DNA from: Chloroflexota bacterium
Lineage (GTDB): Bacteria > Chloroflexota > Anaerolineae > Aggregatilineales > Phototrophicaceae
NCBI GenBank assembly: GCA_028875185.1
Contig: JAPPFH010000012.1
Coordinates: 1-56,046 of the forward strand
Length of the DNA: 56,046 nt
Direction: 5' to 3'
Shown here: positions 3,113 to 48,825 of the stretch, in pieces
Layout of the letters: each line of letters begins with the position of its first letter
Numbering within the stretch: position 1 is the first letter of the stretch
Translations under genes and position numbers: made by a program
Notes under the pieces: model-generated
The model's input: the letters and a program-made list of their open reading frames with translations, nothing else
Told to the model about the DNA's origin: nothing
Database searches by the model: none

Positions 3113-5827
3113 GTGGCATCGGCGCTCGATTACATCATATTTGGACACGATAGCGGAGAGGGCCGGCGGGAACGCCGTAAACTGCTCATGTTCAATGGCG
3201 TCCTGCCATCGCACGACGCCAGATTTTACGCGCAGTTGATTGACTTGGCGCCGATGACGGCTGCCGACGGCGGCGCTGCCCCTGCTCTGGCGCTGGTCAC
3301 TTATGATGGCGAACGCATGATATTAGCCGCCATCCAGCCAGCCGCCGACAACCCCGCCAACCTAAACCATCATTACGTATTCATACCGGCTGAGGCTTTG
3401 CCGGAATCGGCGGCTCAGCTGGAGGATTGGCTGGCTTACTTGCCGCAAGCTTCGCTCGATATCAACAGCACCTTGCCACTCTTGCAGCCGCCAGATTTCC
3501 AGCCGGTCGATGTCGAAACACGGACGGCCTGCCTCCAGCGCATCCTGGACGACATTCCGGACGGAAACTTCGAAGTCGCGCTGTCCTTGCTTGGCGCAGT
3601 CTTGCATGAAAAGCCCGCGATCATAACGCGGTATCCGCCCGATTTCAGCGGGCGACTTGCGCTGATCGCGGGCCTTCAGGCGCTGATCCCGGGCGCGCTT
3701 GCCGCCCGCTTGACCTTCGCCAGCCACGCGCCCGCCAGCTGCCAGCAACCGCCTCAACTGTGCTTCGCTGATGATGGCGACGAGCGCTCGAACTGGATCT
3801 ACGACTGGGGCGCCGCGCCACTTTTCGCCGATGCGTTGAATCATCCGTATATCGCTGTCTTGCGCAACCTTTGGCGCGGGGATGCCGCGTCGCTGGCGGA
3901 AGAGATTCAGCGGCTGGCGCGGCTCGCCGAAACCGGCGCCGATGCGGGCGCGCTCGGGCGCGCGCTAGAGCGCATCTCGCAACGGTTCCATATCGATCAT
4001 CATGTGCAGACGCCGGCCGATAATGTCTCCACCGAAGCGATCATCGGGATCCTGGACGGCGCGGCGCCACCCAGCGACGCAAGCCGCAGCCAATACCTCC
4101 AGAAATTATTGCGCAACGCGCTAAGCCAGCGCGACGCGGCCGCCGGCAAACGCGTGGCTGAAGAACTGGAGAAAGACTCCTCGCTGGAAGGCGCCTTGTC
4201 CGAGATATTTGATGCGATGCTTGAAGACCAGCCGGACGCGGTCTACGTCTTCATTCGCAATCGGCTGATGGACCTCGGCATTGACGAAGCCTGGATTCCC
4301 CGATTGCAAAAAGCGGCCCGCAGCTCGCTCGAGGTAGCTATCAACGAGGGTGATGTCGGCACCTTAGCCGGTTGGCTGGAATTGATCGCGCACGAGCCGC
4401 AAACTTATCAGCTCCACGACATTCTGCGGGAAGCCATCTTGCGCGCCAAGCGCCGAGCCTATGGTGACAGCGAGCTCGGCATTCATCTCATTCTGATCGC
4501 AGTACGCCGCGCGCCGGATATTGTTGACGCGCTCTTTCAAGACGAACAGCTCGTCAATGCGCTGGAGTCAAATGTGCGATCAGCGCTGCAGGAACCATCG
4601 GCGGCGTCGCTCGAGCGGCTCATCGGCGAACGAACCGAGCATTTCCTGCTCGCCTTATATCATGGCTTGCAGGTCTCAGATGAAATTCTGGTGACCTTGC
4701 CGACGGCGAAGCGGCTCTGGTCTCTTAATGAATCTGACCAGCGGGTGAATCTGCCGGCCGTGTATCGACCGCCGGCGGTGACGCGCTTGCTGGCGACCGA
4801 GGCCAGCCACCAAATGACGGAAGAGGCGCTGGAATTTCTCTTCGAAACCATAATCGCCTGCGATGATCGCAAGCTGACCCTCGATACAACCCGCCACTTG
4901 GCCGCCCGCGATCTGCTCTTCCCGCGTTTGAGCCCGGCATTGGAAAACGATGCCGTACCGCTGGATAAAGCGCTGTCGATCATGAATGCGGTTGGCAGCG
5001 TCAAGAACGCGCCGGCGCAAGAGTTGATCGACGCGCACTTCAGCTTGCTCGATTATTATCAGTGGGAGCCGCAAACGCAGCGGCTGATGGAAGCCCTCTC
5101 GCGGGTGATGGCGAAAAACCACGAGGCGCAGATTACCTATCGACATTTGTGGCGACTCTTCGCCGCCTGTCATGAATTGGAGATCGAGGGCGCCACCCGC
5201 ATTGCGATGACCCGTCTACTGCTGCAATACGCGAAGGAAGAAGATCCCTCAGCCTTGGTTGACGGCATCGCGCGCGTTTGGCGACAAATTGGCATGCGCA
5301 AGGCGCTGCAAGAATCGGTGAATGCCTGGTGGCGCAATTACACCCATCGCTTGAACATCACGCAGCTCCAGCGCCTGGCGCGCGAGTTGGATCAACAACG
5401 GAGCATGGAGACACAAAAGCACATCCTTTACTCGGTGCTGGCGATGCGCCGCTGGCTGCACAGCCAAGACCCTTTTGAGTTGGCGCAATCGATTAATGCG
5501 ACTTACACCATATTGGAGCATTTCAGCGAGGCATTTGACGCCGCGCATATCCAAGAGATCGACTCGAACACCATCCGCCGCGAACTCGATGAAGTCGGCG
5601 CCGGGCTCTCATCGGAACAGCGCCATATCCTGGCGAACAACCTGCGCAATCTCGCCAACCGGATCACGCAAATGGCGGAGAAGCGCAGCAAGCCCTCGCT
5701 CATCCGCAGCGACGACAGCATCGAGCGCCAATTGCAGCAGGGCGAAGCCAATCCGCACGGGTCGATCGACATGATGAAATGGATCGCCGGTTATCTGGAC
5801 GGCGCGCATCAGCCCAGCGACGATTGA
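3113..5827 (+). CDS. GTPase-associated protein 1-like (GAP1-N2/M-like) protein
   Basis: A 904-residue cytoplasmic protein without signal or membrane segments. The N-terminus (residues 4-100) has a pattern I associate with the GAP1-N2 domain of bacterial conflict systems: YIIFGHDSGEG..RKLL, then NHHYVFIPAEAL. Residues 155-205 (LLGAVLHEKPAI, then LIPGALAARLTFASH) resemble the adjoining GAP1 middle domain with its conserved LTF. The remainder, about 280-904, is helical and repeat-like. The family usually accompanies a TRAFAC-type GTPase, and none is seen here. I chose the GTG at 3113 because it keeps the conserved N-terminal strand, and the next ATG (3188) would remove it. A weak promoter candidate is TTGCAA (3041-3046), 17 bases, CAAAAT (3064-3069). 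The stop codon lies inside the direct repeat that bounds the downstream restriction-modification cassette. The family call is from memory of motifs. Confidence 0.5.
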   Translation: MASALDYIIFGHDSGEGRRERRKLLMFNGVLPSHDARFYAQLIDLAPMTAADGGAAPALALVTYDGERMILAAIQPAADNPANLNHHYVFIPAEALPESAAQLEDWLAYLPQASLDINSTLPLLQPPDFQPVDVETRTACLQRILDDIPDGNFEVALSLLGAVLHEKPAIITRYPPDFSGRLALIAGLQALIPGALAARLTFASHAPASCQQPPQLCFADDGDERSNWIYDWGAAPLFADALNHPYIAVLRNLWRGDAASLAEEIQRLARLAETGADAGALGRALERISQRFHIDHHVQTPADNVSTEAIIGILDGAAPPSDASRSQYLQKLLRNALSQRDAAAGKRVAEELEKDSSLEGALSEIFDAMLEDQPDAVYVFIRNRLMDLGIDEAWIPRLQKAARSSLEVAINEGDVGTLAGWLELIAHEPQTYQLHDILREAILRAKRRAYGDSELGIHLILIAVRRAPDIVDALFQDEQLVNALESNVRSALQEPSAASLERLIGERTEHFLLALYHGLQVSDEILVTLPTAKRLWSLNESDQRVNLPAVYRPPAVTRLLATEASHQMTEEALEFLFETIIACDDRKLTLDTTRHLAARDLLFPRLSPALENDAVPLDKALSIMNAVGSVKNAPAQELIDAHFSLLDYYQWEPQTQRLMEALSRVMAKNHEAQITYRHLWRLFAACHELEIEGATRIAMTRLLLQYAKEEDPSALVDGIARVWRQIGMRKALQESVNAWWRNYTHRLNITQLQRLARELDQQRSMETQKHILYSVLAMRRWLHSQDPFELAQSINATYTILEHFSEAFDAAHIQEIDSNTIRRELDEVGAGLSSEQRHILANNLRNLANRITQMAEKRSKPSLIRSDDSIERQLQQGEANPHGSIDMMKWIAGYLDGAHQPSDD

Positions 5828-5828
5828 C
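5812..5828 (+). repeat. 17-bp direct repeat, left boundary of the R-M cassette
   Basis: GCCCAGCGACGATTGAC occurs here and, identically, at 9908-9924. This copy forms the last codons and the TGA stop of the GAP1-like gene. The next base on each side differs between the copies, so the match is exactly 17 bp. Confidence 0.8.
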
Positions 5829-5853
5829 CTGTTAGGCCTAGGTTGGATAGAAT
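5824..5853 (+). promoter_or_regulatory. Promoter for the mod-res operon
   Basis: TTGACC at 5824-5829 and TAGAAT at 5848-5853, separated by 18 bases, each match the sigma-70-type consensus at five of six positions. The -35 box overlaps the TGA stop of the upstream gene and the end of the direct repeat. It implies that the restriction-modification pair is transcribed independently of the GAP1-like gene. Confidence 0.45.
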
Positions 5854-5874
5854 CGGGCGGCAGGGGGAACTGTA

Positions 5875-7419
5875 ATGCCGACACTCGAATTCAAGGGCAA
5901 GAACCACATCTACGCCCATCATCTAACCGTGCCCTATCGCCCGCTGCAGCTTGACGAATCTCGCTCGCTGCTTCCCGAATCGGATAATGGCAAAACGTCG
6001 TTGACAGACCAAAACCTCATCATCCACGGCGACAACCTGGAAGCGCTCAAAGCGCTGCTGCCGCATTACGCCGGGCGCGTGAAGTGCATTTACATCGACC
6101 CGCCATACAACACGGGCAATGAAGTCTGGCATTACAACGACAATGTCAACAGTCCAATGATGCAGGACTGGCTAAAGAAACACGGCCCAGTCGATGGCGA
6201 AGACCTGGAACGCCATGACAAATGGCTGTGCATGATGTGGCCCCGCTTGCATCTGCTAAGGGAGTTGCTCAGTGACGATGGTGTAATCTTCATATCTATT
6301 GACTACAACGAGGAACACCACTTACGGATGTTGATGGATGAATTATTTGGTGAGGTTCAATATCGTAATACTTTTGTGGTGGCAAGGGTAAAGAAGAACA
6401 TAAGGGAACGTGAAAAAATACGAGCTTTGAATTTTGGATACAATTCACTTCTTTTCTACGGTAAGTCTGACGAAAGCCTAATTGTGCCACCGACGAAGTT
6501 TCAAAAAAAGAAAGTAAGGTGGCATGCATTTGACGCACCTGGAATACGTCAAACGATGGAATATGAGCTTTTTGGAATGCAGCCGCCCGAAGGCCGCCAC
6601 TGGATGTACTCTGAGGATAGAGCCGTTGAAATGATAGACGCAGGAAGACTTCGTCCAAATCCACGTAGTGGAAAACCTCAGTACCTCCTTGATGAAAGCA
6701 ACCAGACGATGCTGGACACGAATTGGACTGACTTACAGGAATACGATAGTAAGTTCAACTTTCCCTACGGAGAAAAGAATGTGGAGCTAATACATAGGTT
6801 AGTAGGGATGATTGACGACAAAGACGCAGTCATCCTCGACTCCTTCGCCGGCAGCGGCACAACCGCACACGCCGTCCTCGCCCTGAACCAAGAAGACGGC
6901 GGCAACCGGCGCTTCATCCTGGTCGAATGCGAAGACTACGCCGACAGCATCACTGCCGAGCGCGTCCGCCGCGTCATTCGGGGCGTGCCAACTGCAAAGA
7001 ATACGCAGCTCAAAGAAGGTCTGGGCGGCTCATTCGCATACTGTACGCTAGGCGAAGCGATTGATGTGGACAGTCTGTTAGAAGGCGACGAACTTCCATC
7101 ATATTCTGACCTTGCCAGTTACTTGCTTCACACGGCGACCGGGATTTCCGCTTCAACTCAAGACTTGCAATCAAGTGATGAAGACGGTCGTTTCTATTCA
7201 AGTGATGAAACAGATTATTATCTCATTTACGCCCCGAGTCTTGAGTTTCTGCGCAGTGGCGACGCCGCCCTGAATCTTGAACGAGCCGAGCGCATCCGTG
7301 ATAAAGGCCGCTCGGCGGTGGTCTTCGCAGCGGCGAAATTCATAAGTCAAAGTGAACTCAGTAAAATGGGCATCACATTCTGCCAACTTCCTTATGAACT
7401 GGGGTTGGGAGTCTCATAG
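5875..7419 (+). CDS. mod: Type III restriction-modification methyltransferase (Mod)
   Basis: A 514-residue adenine-N6 DNA methyltransferase that uses S-adenosylmethionine to protect the recognition site and supplies specificity to the Mod-Res complex. Catalytic motif IV DPPYNTG is at residues 75-81 and AdoMet-binding motif I FAGSGTT at 324-330. This is the beta-class order (IV, target-recognition region, I) typical of type III Mod. ATG 5875 has a GGGGG ribosome-binding stretch 10 bases upstream. The last base of the stop codon is the first base of the res start (TAGTG), implying translational coupling. The segment encoding roughly residues 135-318 is markedly AT-rich with different codon use from both flanks, which suggests replacement of the target-recognition domain. 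Confidence 0.93.
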   Translation: MPTLEFKGKNHIYAHHLTVPYRPLQLDESRSLLPESDNGKTSLTDQNLIIHGDNLEALKALLPHYAGRVKCIYIDPPYNTGNEVWHYNDNVNSPMMQDWLKKHGPVDGEDLERHDKWLCMMWPRLHLLRELLSDDGVIFISIDYNEEHHLRMLMDELFGEVQYRNTFVVARVKKNIREREKIRALNFGYNSLLFYGKSDESLIVPPTKFQKKKVRWHAFDAPGIRQTMEYELFGMQPPEGRHWMYSEDRAVEMIDAGRLRPNPRSGKPQYLLDESNQTMLDTNWTDLQEYDSKFNFPYGEKNVELIHRLVGMIDDKDAVILDSFAGSGTTAHAVLALNQEDGGNRRFILVECEDYADSITAERVRRVIRGVPTAKNTQLKEGLGGSFAYCTLGEAIDVDSLLEGDELPSYSDLASYLLHTATGISASTQDLQSSDEDGRFYSSDETDYYLIYAPSLEFLRSGDAALNLERAERIRDKGRSAVVFAAAKFISQSELSKMGITFCQLPYELGLGVS

Positions 7420-9896
7420 TGGAACTCAAGGATTATCAGGTCAAGGCGCTGGCTGCGTTTGAGGACTATATCGAGGCTTTGGCGCGAAACGAGCGCGAAG
7501 GCCAAGAGCAAGCGGCGAGGTATCAGCAGGCGGGCTTGCCCATGCCCGAAGACACGCTCGACTATCCCCGACAGACTTGGAACGAGCTCGCTGAAGTGGG
7601 CAAGGTGGCAAAACCAAGTACAACTTACGCGGCGAGAATTGACGGCATGGAGCGCCCGATTCCGCACGTCTGCTTCAAAGTGCCGACCGGCGGCGGCAAG
7701 ACCTTACTCGCGGCGGAAGCGCTGGGGCGGATTCAATATCCACGAGGCCTCGTTTTGTGGATCGTGCCGACGCGCGCCATTTACCAGCAAACCAAAGACG
7801 CGCTATGGAATCGGGAACACCCGTATCGGCAACGGCTGGAACGCGCTAGTGGCGGCAGGGTGAAGATGCTGGAAAAGGACATGCCGTTTCAGCCAGCGGA
7901 TATCGCCAATTATCTCTGCGTCATGCTCTTGATGTTTCCCGCCGCCAATCGTCAAAAGGGCAAAGAGTTCCTGCGTTTCTTTCGCGATTCCGGACGTTAT
8001 CATGCTTTCTTTCCCGGTAGCGACGACGCGCTTTTTGATTCGCGCCTGTTGCGGCGCTACCGCGACCTGGATCGAGAAGACGGACCTATAAAGCAAAGCC
8101 TATTCAACGTCATCAAAATGCAGCGTCCCGTCATCATTCTTGATGAAGCGCACAAAGCCTACGGGAAAAAACTAGAGGGAGCAAAGCAGTTTGCGGATTC
8201 AATAAATCGGCTTAATCCTCGCCTTGTGCTTGAGTTTTCCGCTACGCCAAACCAGAACATCAGCAACTTGCTAGTTGATATAACTGGCGTTGAACTCAAG
8301 GCGGAAGAAATGATTAAGATGCCAGTGCAAGTTACAAGCCAAATGAAAGCCAACTGGCAAGACACCTTGTCAGCCGCCGCCGAAGAATTGGATAACATCG
8401 ACAATGCCGCAGTTGCTTTGCGGCAGCAGGTGGACCGATACATTCGCCCAATTGCGGTAGTGCGAGTGGAACGAACGGGGCGCGACCAGCGAGATGGACT
8501 TCGGGTTCACGCTGAAGATGTCCGCGAATACTTAATCCAGAACCTGGGCGTTCAGGCGGACTCAATCCGAGTCAAGTCCGCCGAAAACGATGAGCTAGGG
8601 CGAGAGGATCTATTGTCGGAATTGAGCGCGGTTCGCTGGATTATTACAAAGGCGGCGCTGATGGAAGGCTGGGACTGCTCATTTGCCTATTTGCTTGTCC
8701 TGCTGGATAATACGCGCTCGCAAACCGCTCTAACTCAACTCGTAGGCCGCATCTTGCGGCAGCCTCATGCCCGTCTTACCGGGATTGAAGAATTGGATCG
8801 CTGCTATGTGTACTGTTGGAATCTTGATGTATTACGAGCAGTAGAACAAGTCAAGAACGGATTGAAAGACGAAGGGCTTACCGGCTTAATGGATCAGGTA
8901 GAAAGCGTAGATGGAGACGATACCACTCAGCGCAAGATCAATATTCAGAGGCGGGAAGCTTTTCGCGGATTCGACATCAAGATACCGAAGGTGCTGCACC
9001 GAGACCGTGACGGTTGGCGCAAGTTGGATCACCTTCAAGACATCTTGGCGGAAGTCGATTGGGATAACGTTCGCCCGCCCCCAGTCCAACAGTTTATACA
9101 CGAACCGCCATATATGGAACGAGTTGAGGTTGATGTCGACAGTAGCGCGGCCAATCCCTCCGCTTGGGAAGAACTTGTAATTGATAAGTCGCTTCGAATA
9201 TCTTGGTTCGCGCGGCGGTTATCAGATATCGTGCCCAACCCGTGGCGGGCCGCCCAATTTGCCTTTGAGCTGTTCGATGATTTGCGGCGTAGCGGCCAGT
9301 CAGATGAAGACATATTTGACAATCGCGCAGGATACGCCGTGCAACTGAAAGAGCATCTGAGCAAAGAAAGTCATCGACTCTGCAAAGCAATATATGAAAA
9401 GAAACTACAAGAAGGAATGATCCGATTTGATCTATATACCGAGCCTGGTCATCTGTTGCCGGAAGAGTTCCCATTGACGGTTGGGGATAGAGACCACACT
9501 TTGGAACGTGGCGGTACTCCAATTCAGTTGAGTCTCTTCGACAGGGTTTTCGAAAAGCAATTTGACTCGGACCTGGAAATGGATTTTGCCTTTCATTTGG
9601 AAAAGCAGCCGCTTCAATGGTGGCACCGGGTAAGACGGGAATTCTATGTGCTTGGGTGGCGGCGTGAAAGGATTTATCCCGATTTTGTGACCTTTGCCGA
9701 CCGGCATTTCGGCATGTTCGAGACCAAGGGCAATCACCTCAAGAACGAAGACACGCAGTACAAATGCGAGGTGTTTGAGCTTTTGGAGCAGCACTTTAAC
9801 GACAGCCACCGCGAAGTTCGCATTGAAGAGCATGAACATCGAAAAGGAATGTTCAATATAGTCTATGAATCCAAGTTTCCAGCGATAAGCGCCTAA
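7419..9896 (+). CDS. res: Type III restriction enzyme Res subunit (helicase-nuclease)
   Basis: An 825-residue superfamily-2 ATPase and endonuclease that cleaves DNA when bound to Mod at unmethylated sites. Visible motifs are Walker A PTGGGKT (89-95), DEAH (242-245), motif III SAT in LEFSATPNQN (271-280), motif VI QLVGRILRQPHA, and a C-terminal PD-(D/E)xK nuclease signature YPDF ... FETKGNH. The start is GTG at 7419, overlapping the mod stop by one base. It is shorter than the roughly 900-1000 residues common for Res proteins, but both catalytic modules are present, so it looks intact. There is no frameshift or internal stop. It is followed at once by the right copy of the cassette's direct repeat. 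Confidence 0.93.
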   Translation: MELKDYQVKALAAFEDYIEALARNEREGQEQAARYQQAGLPMPEDTLDYPRQTWNELAEVGKVAKPSTTYAARIDGMERPIPHVCFKVPTGGGKTLLAAEALGRIQYPRGLVLWIVPTRAIYQQTKDALWNREHPYRQRLERASGGRVKMLEKDMPFQPADIANYLCVMLLMFPAANRQKGKEFLRFFRDSGRYHAFFPGSDDALFDSRLLRRYRDLDREDGPIKQSLFNVIKMQRPVIILDEAHKAYGKKLEGAKQFADSINRLNPRLVLEFSATPNQNISNLLVDITGVELKAEEMIKMPVQVTSQMKANWQDTLSAAAEELDNIDNAAVALRQQVDRYIRPIAVVRVERTGRDQRDGLRVHAEDVREYLIQNLGVQADSIRVKSAENDELGREDLLSELSAVRWIITKAALMEGWDCSFAYLLVLLDNTRSQTALTQLVGRILRQPHARLTGIEELDRCYVYCWNLDVLRAVEQVKNGLKDEGLTGLMDQVESVDGDDTTQRKINIQRREAFRGFDIKIPKVLHRDRDGWRKLDHLQDILAEVDWDNVRPPPVQQFIHEPPYMERVEVDVDSSAANPSAWEELVIDKSLRISWFARRLSDIVPNPWRAAQFAFELFDDLRRSGQSDEDIFDNRAGYAVQLKEHLSKESHRLCKAIYEKKLQEGMIRFDLYTEPGHLLPEEFPLTVGDRDHTLERGGTPIQLSLFDRVFEKQFDSDLEMDFAFHLEKQPLQWWHRVRREFYVLGWRRERIYPDFVTFADRHFGMFETKGNHLKNEDTQYKCEVFELLEQHFNDSHREVRIEEHEHRKGMFNIVYESKFPAISA

Positions 9897-9907
9897 GCTA
9901 TTGCTCC

Positions 9908-9924
9908 GCCCAGCGACGATTGAC
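9908..9924 (+). repeat. 17-bp direct repeat, right boundary of the R-M cassette
   Basis: An exact copy of the sequence at 5812-5828, starting 12 bases after the res stop codon. Here it is non-coding. Confidence 0.8.
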
Positions 9925-9938
9925 GCCATTATTCGGCA

Positions 9939-9968
9939 TTATCATTTCGCCCAATTTCAAAGTAAAAT
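9939..9968 (+). promoter_or_regulatory. Candidate promoter for the GGCT-like gene
   Basis: TTATCA at 9939-9944 and TAAAAT at 9963-9968 are separated by 18 bases, in a locally AT-rich stretch 40-70 bases upstream of ATG 10011. The -35 match is only four of six. Confidence 0.3.
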
Positions 9969-10010
9969 CGAGCTATCCAGCCGTCCGCGCTTTAGGAGAG
10001 ACACGCGCGC

Positions 10011-10358
10011 ATGCAGAAACTGTTCACTTACGGCACCCTGCGCGATCCGGAGACGCAGCAGCGTCTATTGGGTCGTACGCTCGGCGACGGCGCGCCCGAT
10101 ACCTTGCGCGGGTATCGGCTCGCTAAGCTCACCGGCATTCACGAAGTTTATTCGATCCTGCAGCCGCAAGCCGGGTCCACTGTCGAGGGCATGCTCTATG
10201 AAGTCAGCGACGATGAGCTCGACCGCCTGGACGCCTACGAAGGCGAAGCCTACCAGCGCGTCAGCGTCCGGCTGGTGAGCAAGACCCGCGCCTGGGCTTA
10301 CATGGAAAACCCCAAGTCGAGCTTTCGCATTCATATCGAACCGCCAGACAGTCCGTAA
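10011..10358 (+). CDS. Gamma-glutamylcyclotransferase-fold (AIG2-like) protein
   Basis: A 115-residue single-domain cytoplasmic protein. The N-terminal YGTLR motif (about residues 6-10) forms the substrate-binding loop of the GGCT/BtrG/AIG2 fold, and the glutamate in LDAYEGEAYQR matches the catalytic acid position. Family members release 5-oxoproline from gamma-glutamyl amines or peptides. The exact substrate cannot be read from the sequence. ATG 10011 is preceded by AGGAG at about 9992-9996. It lies just outside the restriction-modification cassette and may once have followed the GAP1-like gene directly. Confidence 0.8.
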   Translation: MQKLFTYGTLRDPETQQRLLGRTLGDGAPDTLRGYRLAKLTGIHEVYSILQPQAGSTVEGMLYEVSDDELDRLDAYEGEAYQRVSVRLVSKTRAWAYMENPKSSFRIHIEPPDSP

Positions 10359-10441: not shown

Positions 10442-11617
10442 ATGACAGAGCTTGGCATAGGCATAATCGGCATGGGCTGGATGGGACAGGTCCACGCCCG
10501 TTCTTACAGCCTGGCGCGCCAGCGATTCCCCGACGGCGGCGTTTCGGCGCGGCTGGTCATCTGCTCGGACAATGTCGAGCGGCGGGCGGAAGCAGCGCGC
10601 GACCTGCTCGGCTTCGAATCGGCCACGGCGCGCTGGCAAGATGTCATTGAAGATCCCGCGGCGCAAATCGTGAATATCGCCACGCCCAACAATCTGCATC
10701 TCGAAATCGTCGAAGCGGCTGCGTCCGCTGGCAAACATATCTTCTGCGAGAAACCGGTCGGGCGCAGTCCAGAGGAAACAGCGCAAATTGAAGCTATCGC
10801 GCGCAAAGCAGGCGTATTGAGCTTCGTCGGCTTCAATTATCGCTGGGCGCCGCTGGTCATCCATGCCAGGAAGCTGATCAGCGATGGCGCGCTCGGCGAG
10901 CTGACGCAGTATCGCGGCCGCTTTTTCAGCATGTACGGCAGCGACCCACTGGGATTGCTGTCTTGGCGCTTCGACCGCGAAATCGCTGGTTATGGCGTTG
11001 TGGGTGATATCATGGCGCATGTGACCGATATGGCGCTTTTTCTCGGCGGCGGCGTTCGGCGGCTGGTCAGCAATGCGCGCACCTTCATCGCCGAGCGCCC
11101 CCTTCCCATCCCTGGGGTGGGCACGCATTATTCGCGCGGGGCGCCGGAAGACCCCAAAGCGCCAGTAACCAACGAGGATTATGTGAGCGCGCTGCTGGAA
11201 TTCGAGAACGGCGCGCGCGGCACGGTCGAGGCTTCTCGTACGATATTTGGACCGAAGAACCAGATGGCTTTTGAGCTTAACGGCACGAAAGGCGCGCTCA
11301 ACTGGGATTTCGAGCGGATGAACGAATTGCAGCTATACCGCCCCGACGCCGATGGCGGGCATGACGGCTACATGCGGCTGGTCGGCGGCGATCAATATCC
11401 CTACCACGGCAACTTCAATCCGGGCGAAGGCAGCGGCTTGGGCTATGAAGATATGAAGGTGATCGAAGCCTACAATTTCCTCCAATCGGTCGCGGAGGGG
11501 GTGCAGCGCGCGCCGGGCTTGGCGGAGGCGCTGGCGGTGGCCGAAGTCCACGCGGCGATGATCCGCTCCTGGGAGAGCGGCGAGTGGGAAGCGGTCACCG
11601 GTTTGCGGATTGGCTGA
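10442..11617 (+). CDS. Gfo/Idh/MocA family NAD(P)-dependent oxidoreductase
   Basis: A 391-residue two-domain dehydrogenase. A Rossmann motif [10 protein letters not shown] lies at residues 5-14 and the family's EKP catalytic motif at 103-105 ([10 protein letters not shown]). The C-terminal half has the open beta-sheet features of the family (for example [19 protein letters not shown], giving the DxxxH-type pattern). Members oxidise or reduce sugars, inositols and related polyols. The substrate is not identifiable here. The gene sits between the GGCT-like protein and guanine deaminase on the same strand, with a repeat-filled 111-bp gap before guaD, so co-transcription is uncertain. Confidence 0.85.
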
Positions 11618-47565: not shown

Positions 47566-48825
47566 TTACAGCACGGCACTGGCAAGCGTACCCTTGTATG
47601 TTCCATCCGCGTCCAAGATGTTCACGCGTATCAGTCGCGTTGCGCTATCGAGCTTAGCGTAAGCATCAATATGCAGAGCGCGCAAGGGCGATACCGGTCC
47701 CAAGTCGATTTTGCCCACTAAGCCGCCCGCTTCATCCAGGCATTCTATTTCCCCGCGGCCCGCCAAAAAACAGCCGAAGGCGCCTTGAATCCGCGCCCAG
47801 CCGCCATTGACATCCACCGTCAGCGGCTCATGCGCGCAACCGACATCGGTGACATCAACGATTGGCGCCGGACAATATGCCGCCGACCAAGTCACGCGCT
47901 GCGACGCGACCTTGCCCGGAGCGAGCGTGAATAGCGGGCTGAGCAATTCCGCCTCCAGAATGTAGCCGGGCGAACGAATCGGTATCGGCGAAGGCGCGCC
48001 GGGCGATTCGGTCCAGCATTCTACCGTCGCGCCATTGTCGGGATACTCGGCATCGGGCTCATAAGGAAATTGCATACATAGCGCGAAACCCGCTCGTCGG
48101 TCGGCGAAGGCGATCCAACCGGCCGGACTATGTACGCCGATCTTGCCAACGATGCCCTGATACTGAACCGCCAGCAAAGCACTCTCCCCATGCATCTGAT
48201 ACTGACTATTGTCATCGCCGAACATGATCTCGTAGGGTCGCTCGCGCGCGGGATCGATGGGGATATAAAGCCAGCAATCATCGTTGAGCTGACCATCGAC
48301 CGCGCTGCAAACCATCTGCGCCACATCCCAGATCGACCAGCGTATTGCGCGCTCGGAAATATTCTCGAAGGACAAATCGAGCTTCAAGCGCGAGCTCGCA
48401 TCGTCGACGCGCAACAAGCGGCGAATGCGCAAACCCGAGCGCGCGTCGGGCGGGCTCGTCATCAGAAGAGCGGCAGCCGATACCTCCTGGTTCGTCTCCA
48501 ATGCGTAGGGTCCTGAATCAAGCACCGGATCCGGCGGACCGGGCCACTGCCCCTCGCCATCCCAGCCTTGCGGGGCGGGCCAGGTCTTGGCGCCGCCGTA
48601 ATTCTTCCAGTGTAGAATCGTGCCATCGCCGGCATGTTCTTCAAAAGTGAAGCGCTTGCCCAGCAGCTCCGGATTCACGAAGAGATAATCATGCGAACCC
48701 AAACTGAACTGCATCAGGCGTCCGCCGATCTCGGGCACACAGACGGCGTCGATGATGCCATTGCTCAGCCGGACGCCGTCCCAGCCATGGAAATCAATTT
48801 CGTCGGCAGTAACCGTCGGAGGCAT
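47566..48825 (-). CDS. DUF4380/aldose-epimerase-fold protein
   Basis: A 419-residue soluble protein. VRLSNGIIDAVCVPEIGGRLMQFSLG resembles the N-terminal strands of galactose-mutarotase-fold proteins, and FVNPELLGK, LHWKNYGGAKTWPAPQGW are blocks I associate with DUF4380. Later SFENISERAIRWSIWDVAQ fits the same supersandwich fold. It probably binds or interconverts a sugar, and catalytic residues are not obvious. It lies in the minus-strand sugar island between permease and GH5-like genes. The start is ATG 48825. Confidence 0.7.
   Translation of the reverse strand: MPPTVTADEIDFHGWDGVRLSNGIIDAVCVPEIGGRLMQFSLGSHDYLFVNPELLGKRFTFEEHAGDGTILHWKNYGGAKTWPAPQGWDGEGQWPGPPDPVLDSGPYALETNQEVSAAALLMTSPPDARSGLRIRRLLRVDDASSRLKLDLSFENISERAIRWSIWDVAQMVCSAVDGQLNDDCWLYIPIDPARERPYEIMFGDDNSQYQMHGESALLAVQYQGIVGKIGVHSPAGWIAFADRRAGFALCMQFPYEPDAEYPDNGATVECWTESPGAPSPIPIRSPGYILEAELLSPLFTLAPGKVASQRVTWSAAYCPAPIVDVTDVGCAHEPLTVDVNGGWARIQGAFGCFLAGRGEIECLDEAGGLVGKIDLGPVSPLRALHIDAYAKLDSATRLIRVNILDADGTYKGTLASAVL

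Follow-up and report, generated by a model that had tools for sequence, protein, structure and literature searches.

A Type III cassette behind a GAP1-like gene

The window, by which we mean the whole analysed stretch of 56,046 nucleotides (Chloroflexota bacterium, assembly GCA_028875185.1, contig JAPPFH010000012.1, positions 1 to 56,046), carries a two-gene mod-res cassette between a GAP1-like gene and a gamma-glutamylcyclotransferase-like gene (GGCT), the latter followed by an oxidoreductase gene (OxR). The genome of the window is designated G000, and the genus set comprises 34 genomes. The locus is composed of the following features.

3113..5827, plus strand: GAP1-like target gene, an ORF of 904 aa whose 3' end is the duplicated sequence
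5812..5828, plus strand: left 17-bp repeat copy, the GAP1-like gene end with its stop and one further base
5824..5853, plus strand: promoter-like site TTGACC-18 nt-TAGAAT (10/12 matches), whose TTGACC contains the GAP1 stop TGA
5828..5874, plus strand: 47-nt leader from GAP1 stop to mod start, resembling the leaders of G023, G007 and G010
5875..7419, plus strand: mod, Type III DNA methyltransferase of 514 aa, an intact ORF with DPPY at residue 75
7419..9896, plus strand: res, Type III restriction subunit of 825 aa, with DEAH, QLVGRILR and PD...ETK motifs
9897..9907, plus strand: 11-nt insert tail between res and the right repeat copy
9908..9924, plus strand: right 17-bp repeat copy, the duplicated GAP1-like gene end
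9925..10010, plus strand: native GAP1-GGCT spacer, homologous to the spacers of empty relatives
9939-9968, plus strand: promoter-like TTATCA-18-TAAAAT inside the native spacer
10011..10358, plus strand: GGCT, right neighbour of the slot (GGACT, E 5.5e-20)
10442..11617, plus strand: GFO/IDH/MocA oxidoreductase (OxR), the next conserved neighbour, by family match

The GAP1-like protein is present in 57 of 61 searched genomes, with a full or near-full match in every one of the 34 genus genomes, G000 among them. Its single Pfam match is GAP1-M (E 0.015), which falls below the cut-off, and the name GAP1 is therefore a weak one.

Judged from sequence, mod and res are a Type III R-M pair. The mod product has the Pfam and PADLOC matches and the DPPY motif of a predicted Type III N6/N4 methyltransferase, while res matches ResIII and DEAD and, in PADLOC, REase_III (E 2.3e-185). 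The PD...ETK motif, which we take to be that of a PD-(D/E)XK nuclease, retains its P, D, E and K in all seven res compared, and DEAH presumably represents the superfamily 2 helicase motor motif.

The sibling cassettes vary in mod. Simple repeats occur in mod of four of the six, just upstream of the conserved C-terminal part: (CACAA)14 at L033:1747-1816, (ACCCA)5 at L034:1658-1683, C14 at L035:1703-1716 and (CAGCC)17 from L043:797 on. The frame opened by the mod start breaks off after 394 aa in G023 and after 392 aa in G010. Such a tract lies in mod of 8 of 66 scanned mod-res loci and in res of none (G017 was scanned apart); the same scan of the window's mod found none. Residues 166–318 are only 12–26% identical among five cassettes, against 80–93% for residues 1–165, in a comparison that covers the window and four relatives (G017 omitted) and whose C-terminal figures are unusable for the two frame-shifted genes. 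The sibling mod genes thus look like phase-variable Type III mod, and the divergent middle region probably reflects exchange of the target recognition domain (TRD). Type III systems with phase-variable mod alleles, such as ModA and ModS, share with the present one the mod-res pair, the conserved N-terminal part, the divergent middle and, in the siblings, the simple repeats; unlike them, the window's mod is free of a repeat tract and the hosts are Anaerolineae.

Direct repeats and the GAP1-GGCT slot

The exact 17-mer repeat stands on the plus strand at 5812-5828 and 9908-9924 of the window. Its left copy takes in the final base of one codon, the four codons that close the GAP1-like ORF (3113-5827), the stop and one base beyond it, and the first base of its right copy lies 12 bases past the last base of res. 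When extended, the pair is identical at 19 of 20 positions. Across the assembly (4,372,157 bases in 158 contigs, 93.8% complete) these are the only two copies at up to 2 mismatches, which rules out a dispersed repeat. The other matches within the window carry 3 mismatches each (10832-10848 on the minus strand, 47795-47811 on the plus strand), and in 100 shuffles the number of matches with no more than 3 mismatches averages 0.40, with a maximum of 3.

A matched control compared the longest exact repeat between the 150 bp before mod and the 150 bp after res at 62 loci, namely the window and 61 of 80 fetched, the other 19 lacking an end or failing the length filter. Repeats of at least 17 nt occur at 2 of the 62 loci, the window and L143, against a fraction of 0.0003 among 3762 mismatched pairs; repeats of at least 8 nt occur in 0.25 of control pairs, and 8 nt is accordingly a chance length. 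On the shuffles and the matched loci, a chance origin was rejected for the window's pair. The original prediction, which described exact 17-mers at these two places, assigned the last codons and stop of the GAP1-like gene to the left copy, set the right copy 12 bases after res and held that chance was a very unlikely source, is confirmed in each respect, and the common dispersed repeat that it named as a refutation did not turn up. The idea that other mod-res loci carry duplicated gene ends does not generalize, given the 2 of 62 loci at or above 17 bp, one of them palindromic. That one, at L143, is an exact 42-bp sequence built around a palindromic core, with copies 242 bp ahead of mod and 53 bp beyond res; it is probably a dispersed intergenic repeat.

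Comparison within the genus places the repeats in context. The GAP1-GGCT slot is empty in 27 of 34 genomes, occupied by mod-res in six (G000, G023, G010, G022, G007 and G017) and of another kind in one (G033). Among 29 congener loci, 24 run directly from GAP1 to GGCT, with OxR in view in 21, and five have mod after GAP1; of the four remaining congeners, three show GAP1-GGCT and G033 is without GGCT in the stretch read. A tblastn search at E 1e-3 matched neither mod nor res at the 24 empty loci. The gene order of G017 spans two contigs broken inside mod, with an exact 141-nt overlap. Among 80 wider loci, GGCT stands beside res solely in five genus members (L080-L084). The empty site foreseen by the original prediction, a GAP1-like gene followed by GGCT, is thus common, and these relatives support its claim of a mod-res insertion at the 3' end of the GAP1-like gene. 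All six insertions display just mod, res and short spacers, which leaves its suggestion of a remnant of a larger element unsupported.

Altogether, res is found in 8 of the 34 genomes: the window's, five others 76–80% identical to it, G027 at 72% and G008 at 39%. The last two have neither GAP1 nor GGCT within the 4–5 kb examined around res. The res of G027 (L048, G027:C84), the sole other genus res above 70% identity besides the slot occupants, sits at the start of a contig, apart from GAP1-GGCT, and G027's own GAP1 slot is empty. A different arrangement is seen in G012 (L013), where the spacer after the GAP1 stop measures 218 nt rather than 87–88, with about 131 extra bases beside TGAC, parts of which match short stretches elsewhere in G012, G011 and G000; this is another type of insertion at the place that mod-res takes in the occupied genomes.

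Within the window's clade, eight aligned empty genomes have 87–88-nt spacers that can be aligned from the GAP1 end to the GGCT start (the 218-nt spacer of G012 was left out). In both the window and G023, the sequence to the right of res can be aligned with these empty spacers and, further left, with the GAP1 end; the right copy is therefore the duplicated GAP1 end, as the original prediction had proposed. Both copies are target-derived, as in R-M insertion with target duplication, and this homology is stronger evidence than the repeat count. At each of the 27 empty sites, the 230 nt that come next repeat at most 6–9 nt of the GAP1 end (its last 46 nt) exactly, so that the repeat pair in relatives lacking mod-res, which the original prediction named as its refutation, is absent.

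The right junction varies among the occupants. The gap between res and GGCT measures 114, 113, 15, 13, 13 and 30 nt in G000, G023, G010, G022, G007 and G017, respectively, and in the five occupied genomes other than the window's the longest flanking repeat is 8 nt. In G010, G022, G007 and G017 these 8-nt repeats sit at unrelated places. In G023, chance is not rejected for the 8-nt match by length alone; since it sits at the homologous place, with the 28-nt spacing to res that the window also shows, it is likely a short or decayed duplication. The res stop lies 28 nt from TTGAC in both G000 and G023, and this equal spacing may reflect one shared insertion. The duplication in G000 is argued to be recent because its copies are identical at 17 of 17 positions. 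G007 presents yet another junction: its clade mates G003, G030, G015 and G027 have a common 48–49-nt spacer, which is replaced in G007.

The left junction is held more closely. From the GAP1 stop to mod, the leader measures 47, 47, 47, 45, 49 and 11 nt in G000, G023, G007, G010, G017 and G022, respectively. The similarity of the G000 leader to those of G023, G007 and G010 was reached by 0 of 1000 shuffles in each case; weaker similarity links G023 with G010 (reached by 29 of 1000 shuffles), G000 with G017 (76 of 1000) and G010 with G007 (150 of 1000). Similarity between the mod leader and empty spacers was considered and rejected, since none of 25 comparisons rose above what chance gives (in the best of them, 46 of 500 shuffles reached the score). 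The TTGAC(C)-18 nt-TAGAAT-type spacing recurs in G023, G007 and G010; because the leaders are related, this recurrence amounts to about one observation, not four, and the region holds 7 promoter-like sites against 3.4 expected. The site at 5824..5853 would drive mod, and completion of a mod promoter by the GAP1 end may explain why the left junction is held.

Gain and loss of the cassette

Three host trees were built, from rpoB (29 genomes), GAP1+GGCT+OxR (30) and gyrA+rpoB (29), and were midpoint-rooted for the loss count; G008, G009, G021 and G033 are absent from all of them, G024 is absent from two owing to a truncated rpoB, and several rows are without part of OxR. All three trees separate the six occupied genomes, giving 6 changes, of which 5–6 are forced by well-supported branches, and a single gain would cost 13 losses on each of them. 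In the res tree, G010 pairs with G022, and G007 with G017. Res rejects four of five host topologies, namely gyrA+rpoB (AU p 5.8e-08), rpoB (1e-43) and two flank resolutions (0.004 and 0.005); the third flank resolution is not rejected (AU p 0.097), the flank topologies tested being our own resolutions of unresolved forks. A separate res test of G000 grouped with G023 gave p 0.033.

Pairwise identities point in the same direction, rpoB less sharply than gyrA. Between G007 and G017, res is 86.2% identical against 68.7% for gyrA, 70.8% for GGCT, 78.8% for OxR and 84.7% for rpoB, whereas between the nearer hosts G000 and G023 res is 79.7% identical against 83.6% for gyrA, 83.6% for OxR and 89.2% for rpoB. 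The GC content of mod and res is 50–55% against 59–62% in the flanks (five genomes, without G017). Because the occupants are isolated on the trees, res rejects four of five topologies and the GC content of the cassette differs from that of its flanks, the slot looks like a recurrent acquisition site, and horizontal spread with repeated gains appears to describe its history better than vertical descent with about 13 losses.

Vertical descent is the main rival, in which an ancestral mod-res pair between GAP1 and GGCT would have been deleted many times, partly by recombination across the repeat. It accounts for the single syntenic slot and for res identities to G000 that track OxR identities; moreover, it is usual within a species for one locus to hold mod alleles whose TRDs can be exchanged, and with one flank-compatible topology surviving (p 0.097), descent with losses therefore retains some probability. 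We nevertheless regard it as unlikely, in view of the 13 losses per gain demanded by each tree, the rejection of the gyrA+rpoB topology by res, the maintained GC contrast, the 24 empty loci free of mod and res matches, and G007, which is occupied and is without the homologous spacer common to its empty clade mates.

Site-specific integration concerns the manner of entry: the cassette would be a minimal mobile element integrated at the GAP1 end by a recombinase acting in trans. Slot and orientation are indeed identical in all six genus members with res above 75% identity, five of these six have their left end 45–49 nt past the GAP1 stop, and the gene end is duplicated in the window. The cassette encodes no recombinase, as originally predicted. 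Among the 39 larger ORFs of the window that were scanned, 29 of which list matches to 1e-10, no recombinase or transposase family appears among the listed matches; searched as a whole, the genome yields a single PF00589 match, located on another contig, and none to PF00239. The duplication is also inconstant, being 17 bp in the window and 8 nt, or chance, elsewhere, and the spacer of G007 is replaced, so that the compared insertions have no constant attachment core. Synonymous conservation in GAP1 reaches the 50th–89th percentile in windows ending 0–20 codons before the end, against the 96th–97th in those ending 30–40 codons before it; a conserved DNA attachment site was rejected because conservation is not raised at the very end. 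A plasmid or phage vehicle was likewise discarded, as res matches in 60 plasmid records are all below 60% identity and those in 2 phage records are weak, also below 60%; no res relative was confirmed in viral contigs, where one exact 17-mer was taken as chance. With the long repeat confined to the window, the G007 spacer lost and no recombinase found in the window, a site-specific integrase is unsupported and this reading is rather improbable. The original prediction thus stands as to insertion, end duplication and empty site, and not in taking gene-end duplication as a mark of site-specific integration or the cassette as what is left of a larger element. That the 17-mer pair might be chance or an assembly artefact is suggested by the draft state of the assembly (158 contigs), in which a short repeat can mislead an assembler; this is extremely unlikely given the same gene order in five other assemblies, including the one broken in mod, the alignment of the right copy to native GAP1 ends, and the 0.0003 rate in matched controls.

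Proposed route of insertion and known systems

The reading we favour, and consider probable, is that a horizontally acquired cassette was inserted right after the GAP1 stop with duplication of 17 bp, at a slot recurrent for one R-M family, through a recombination route that we infer from the junctions. Once congener DNA carrying GAP1-mod-res had entered, the left junction would be set by homologous pairing within or next to the GAP1 end, and the right end would be joined either by homology near GGCT or illegitimately. The outcome could be a small duplication (the window, probably G023), loss of the spacer (G007) or neither. A dedicated recombinase would not be needed, since housekeeping recombination would suffice. 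A left end that hardly shifts and a right end that does are in keeping with pairing at the GAP1 end and loose joining on the opposite side.

Analysis of the flanks found no donor tract in 300-bp windows of GAP1 and OxR or 120-bp windows of GGCT, and G007, G023 and G017 are mostly closest to their empty sisters; the few exceptions include two in G023, namely the opening 120 bp of its GGCT, for which empty G028 is closest, and its last OxR window, in which the sister is cut off. The comparison uses one genome per species and is blind for G010 and G022, which have no close sister. Flank introgression is thus not seen at 120–300 bp resolution, and any homologous tract must therefore be short or its donor unsampled. 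In a homing-like variant, Res would attack unmethylated chromosomes and repair or recombination would copy the cassette into the GAP1-GGCT slot, with the GAP1 stop (in TTGAC) completing the promoter. We hold this variant to be very doubtful; if true, the slot would become occupied in one species after another with no need of an integrase, a transposase or a vehicle.

Insertions of R-M genes that duplicate their target have been published, as have integrase-free hotspots, and the present slot is a well-resolved Type III case in an unusually clean comparative setting. Known target duplications of R-M genes are long, tens of base pairs or more; the window's 17-bp duplication works like these in a short form, below that length. 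R-M genes are described as inserted in one genome relative to another with target duplication in Helicobacter pylori and others (Nobusato et al. 2000; Furuta et al. 2010, as cited in PMC1643837 and PMC3031569). As in the Helicobacter pylori type, the target is duplicated here and an empty site exists in a relative; the present case differs in its short 17 bp, in the reuse of the slot across species of a genus and in that most occupants are without a clear repeat. Integrase-free hotspots that are supplied through recombination in the core genes on either side (2017, PMC5635113) likewise show accessory turnover between two fixed conserved genes with no identifiable mobile elements; in the present slot, by contrast, one gene family is the occupant and no donor tract is detected in the flanks. 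Homology-facilitated illegitimate recombination (HFIR) resembles the proposed route in combining one homologous with one illegitimate end, in dispensing with a dedicated recombinase and in its microhomology joints (PMC3240628). Its products usually carry deletions of about 1 kb, while E. coli duplications of 109–950 bp are attributed there to single crossing-over (PMC3240628); in contrast, the slot shows a small duplication or replacement rather than an approximately 1-kb deletion, and the process is read from genomes. Literature searches that did not name the gene pair returned no paper on the GAP1-GGCT slot.

The slot offers one family at one position, with repeated and apparently independent occupancy and readable junctions, and an empty sister as near as 89–98% per GAP1 window (G007 versus G003). 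Strain-level genomes could therefore separate integrase, homologous recombination, illegitimate joining and loss as routes. Beyond the genus, res relatives 46–55% identical (L086-L159) are spread across many phyla, including Poribacteria, Dehalococcoidia, Latescibacterota, Acidimicrobiia, Candidatus Synechococcus spongiarum and others. Several of these hosts are known as sponge symbionts, and a sponge-associated pool common to the res relatives is possible.
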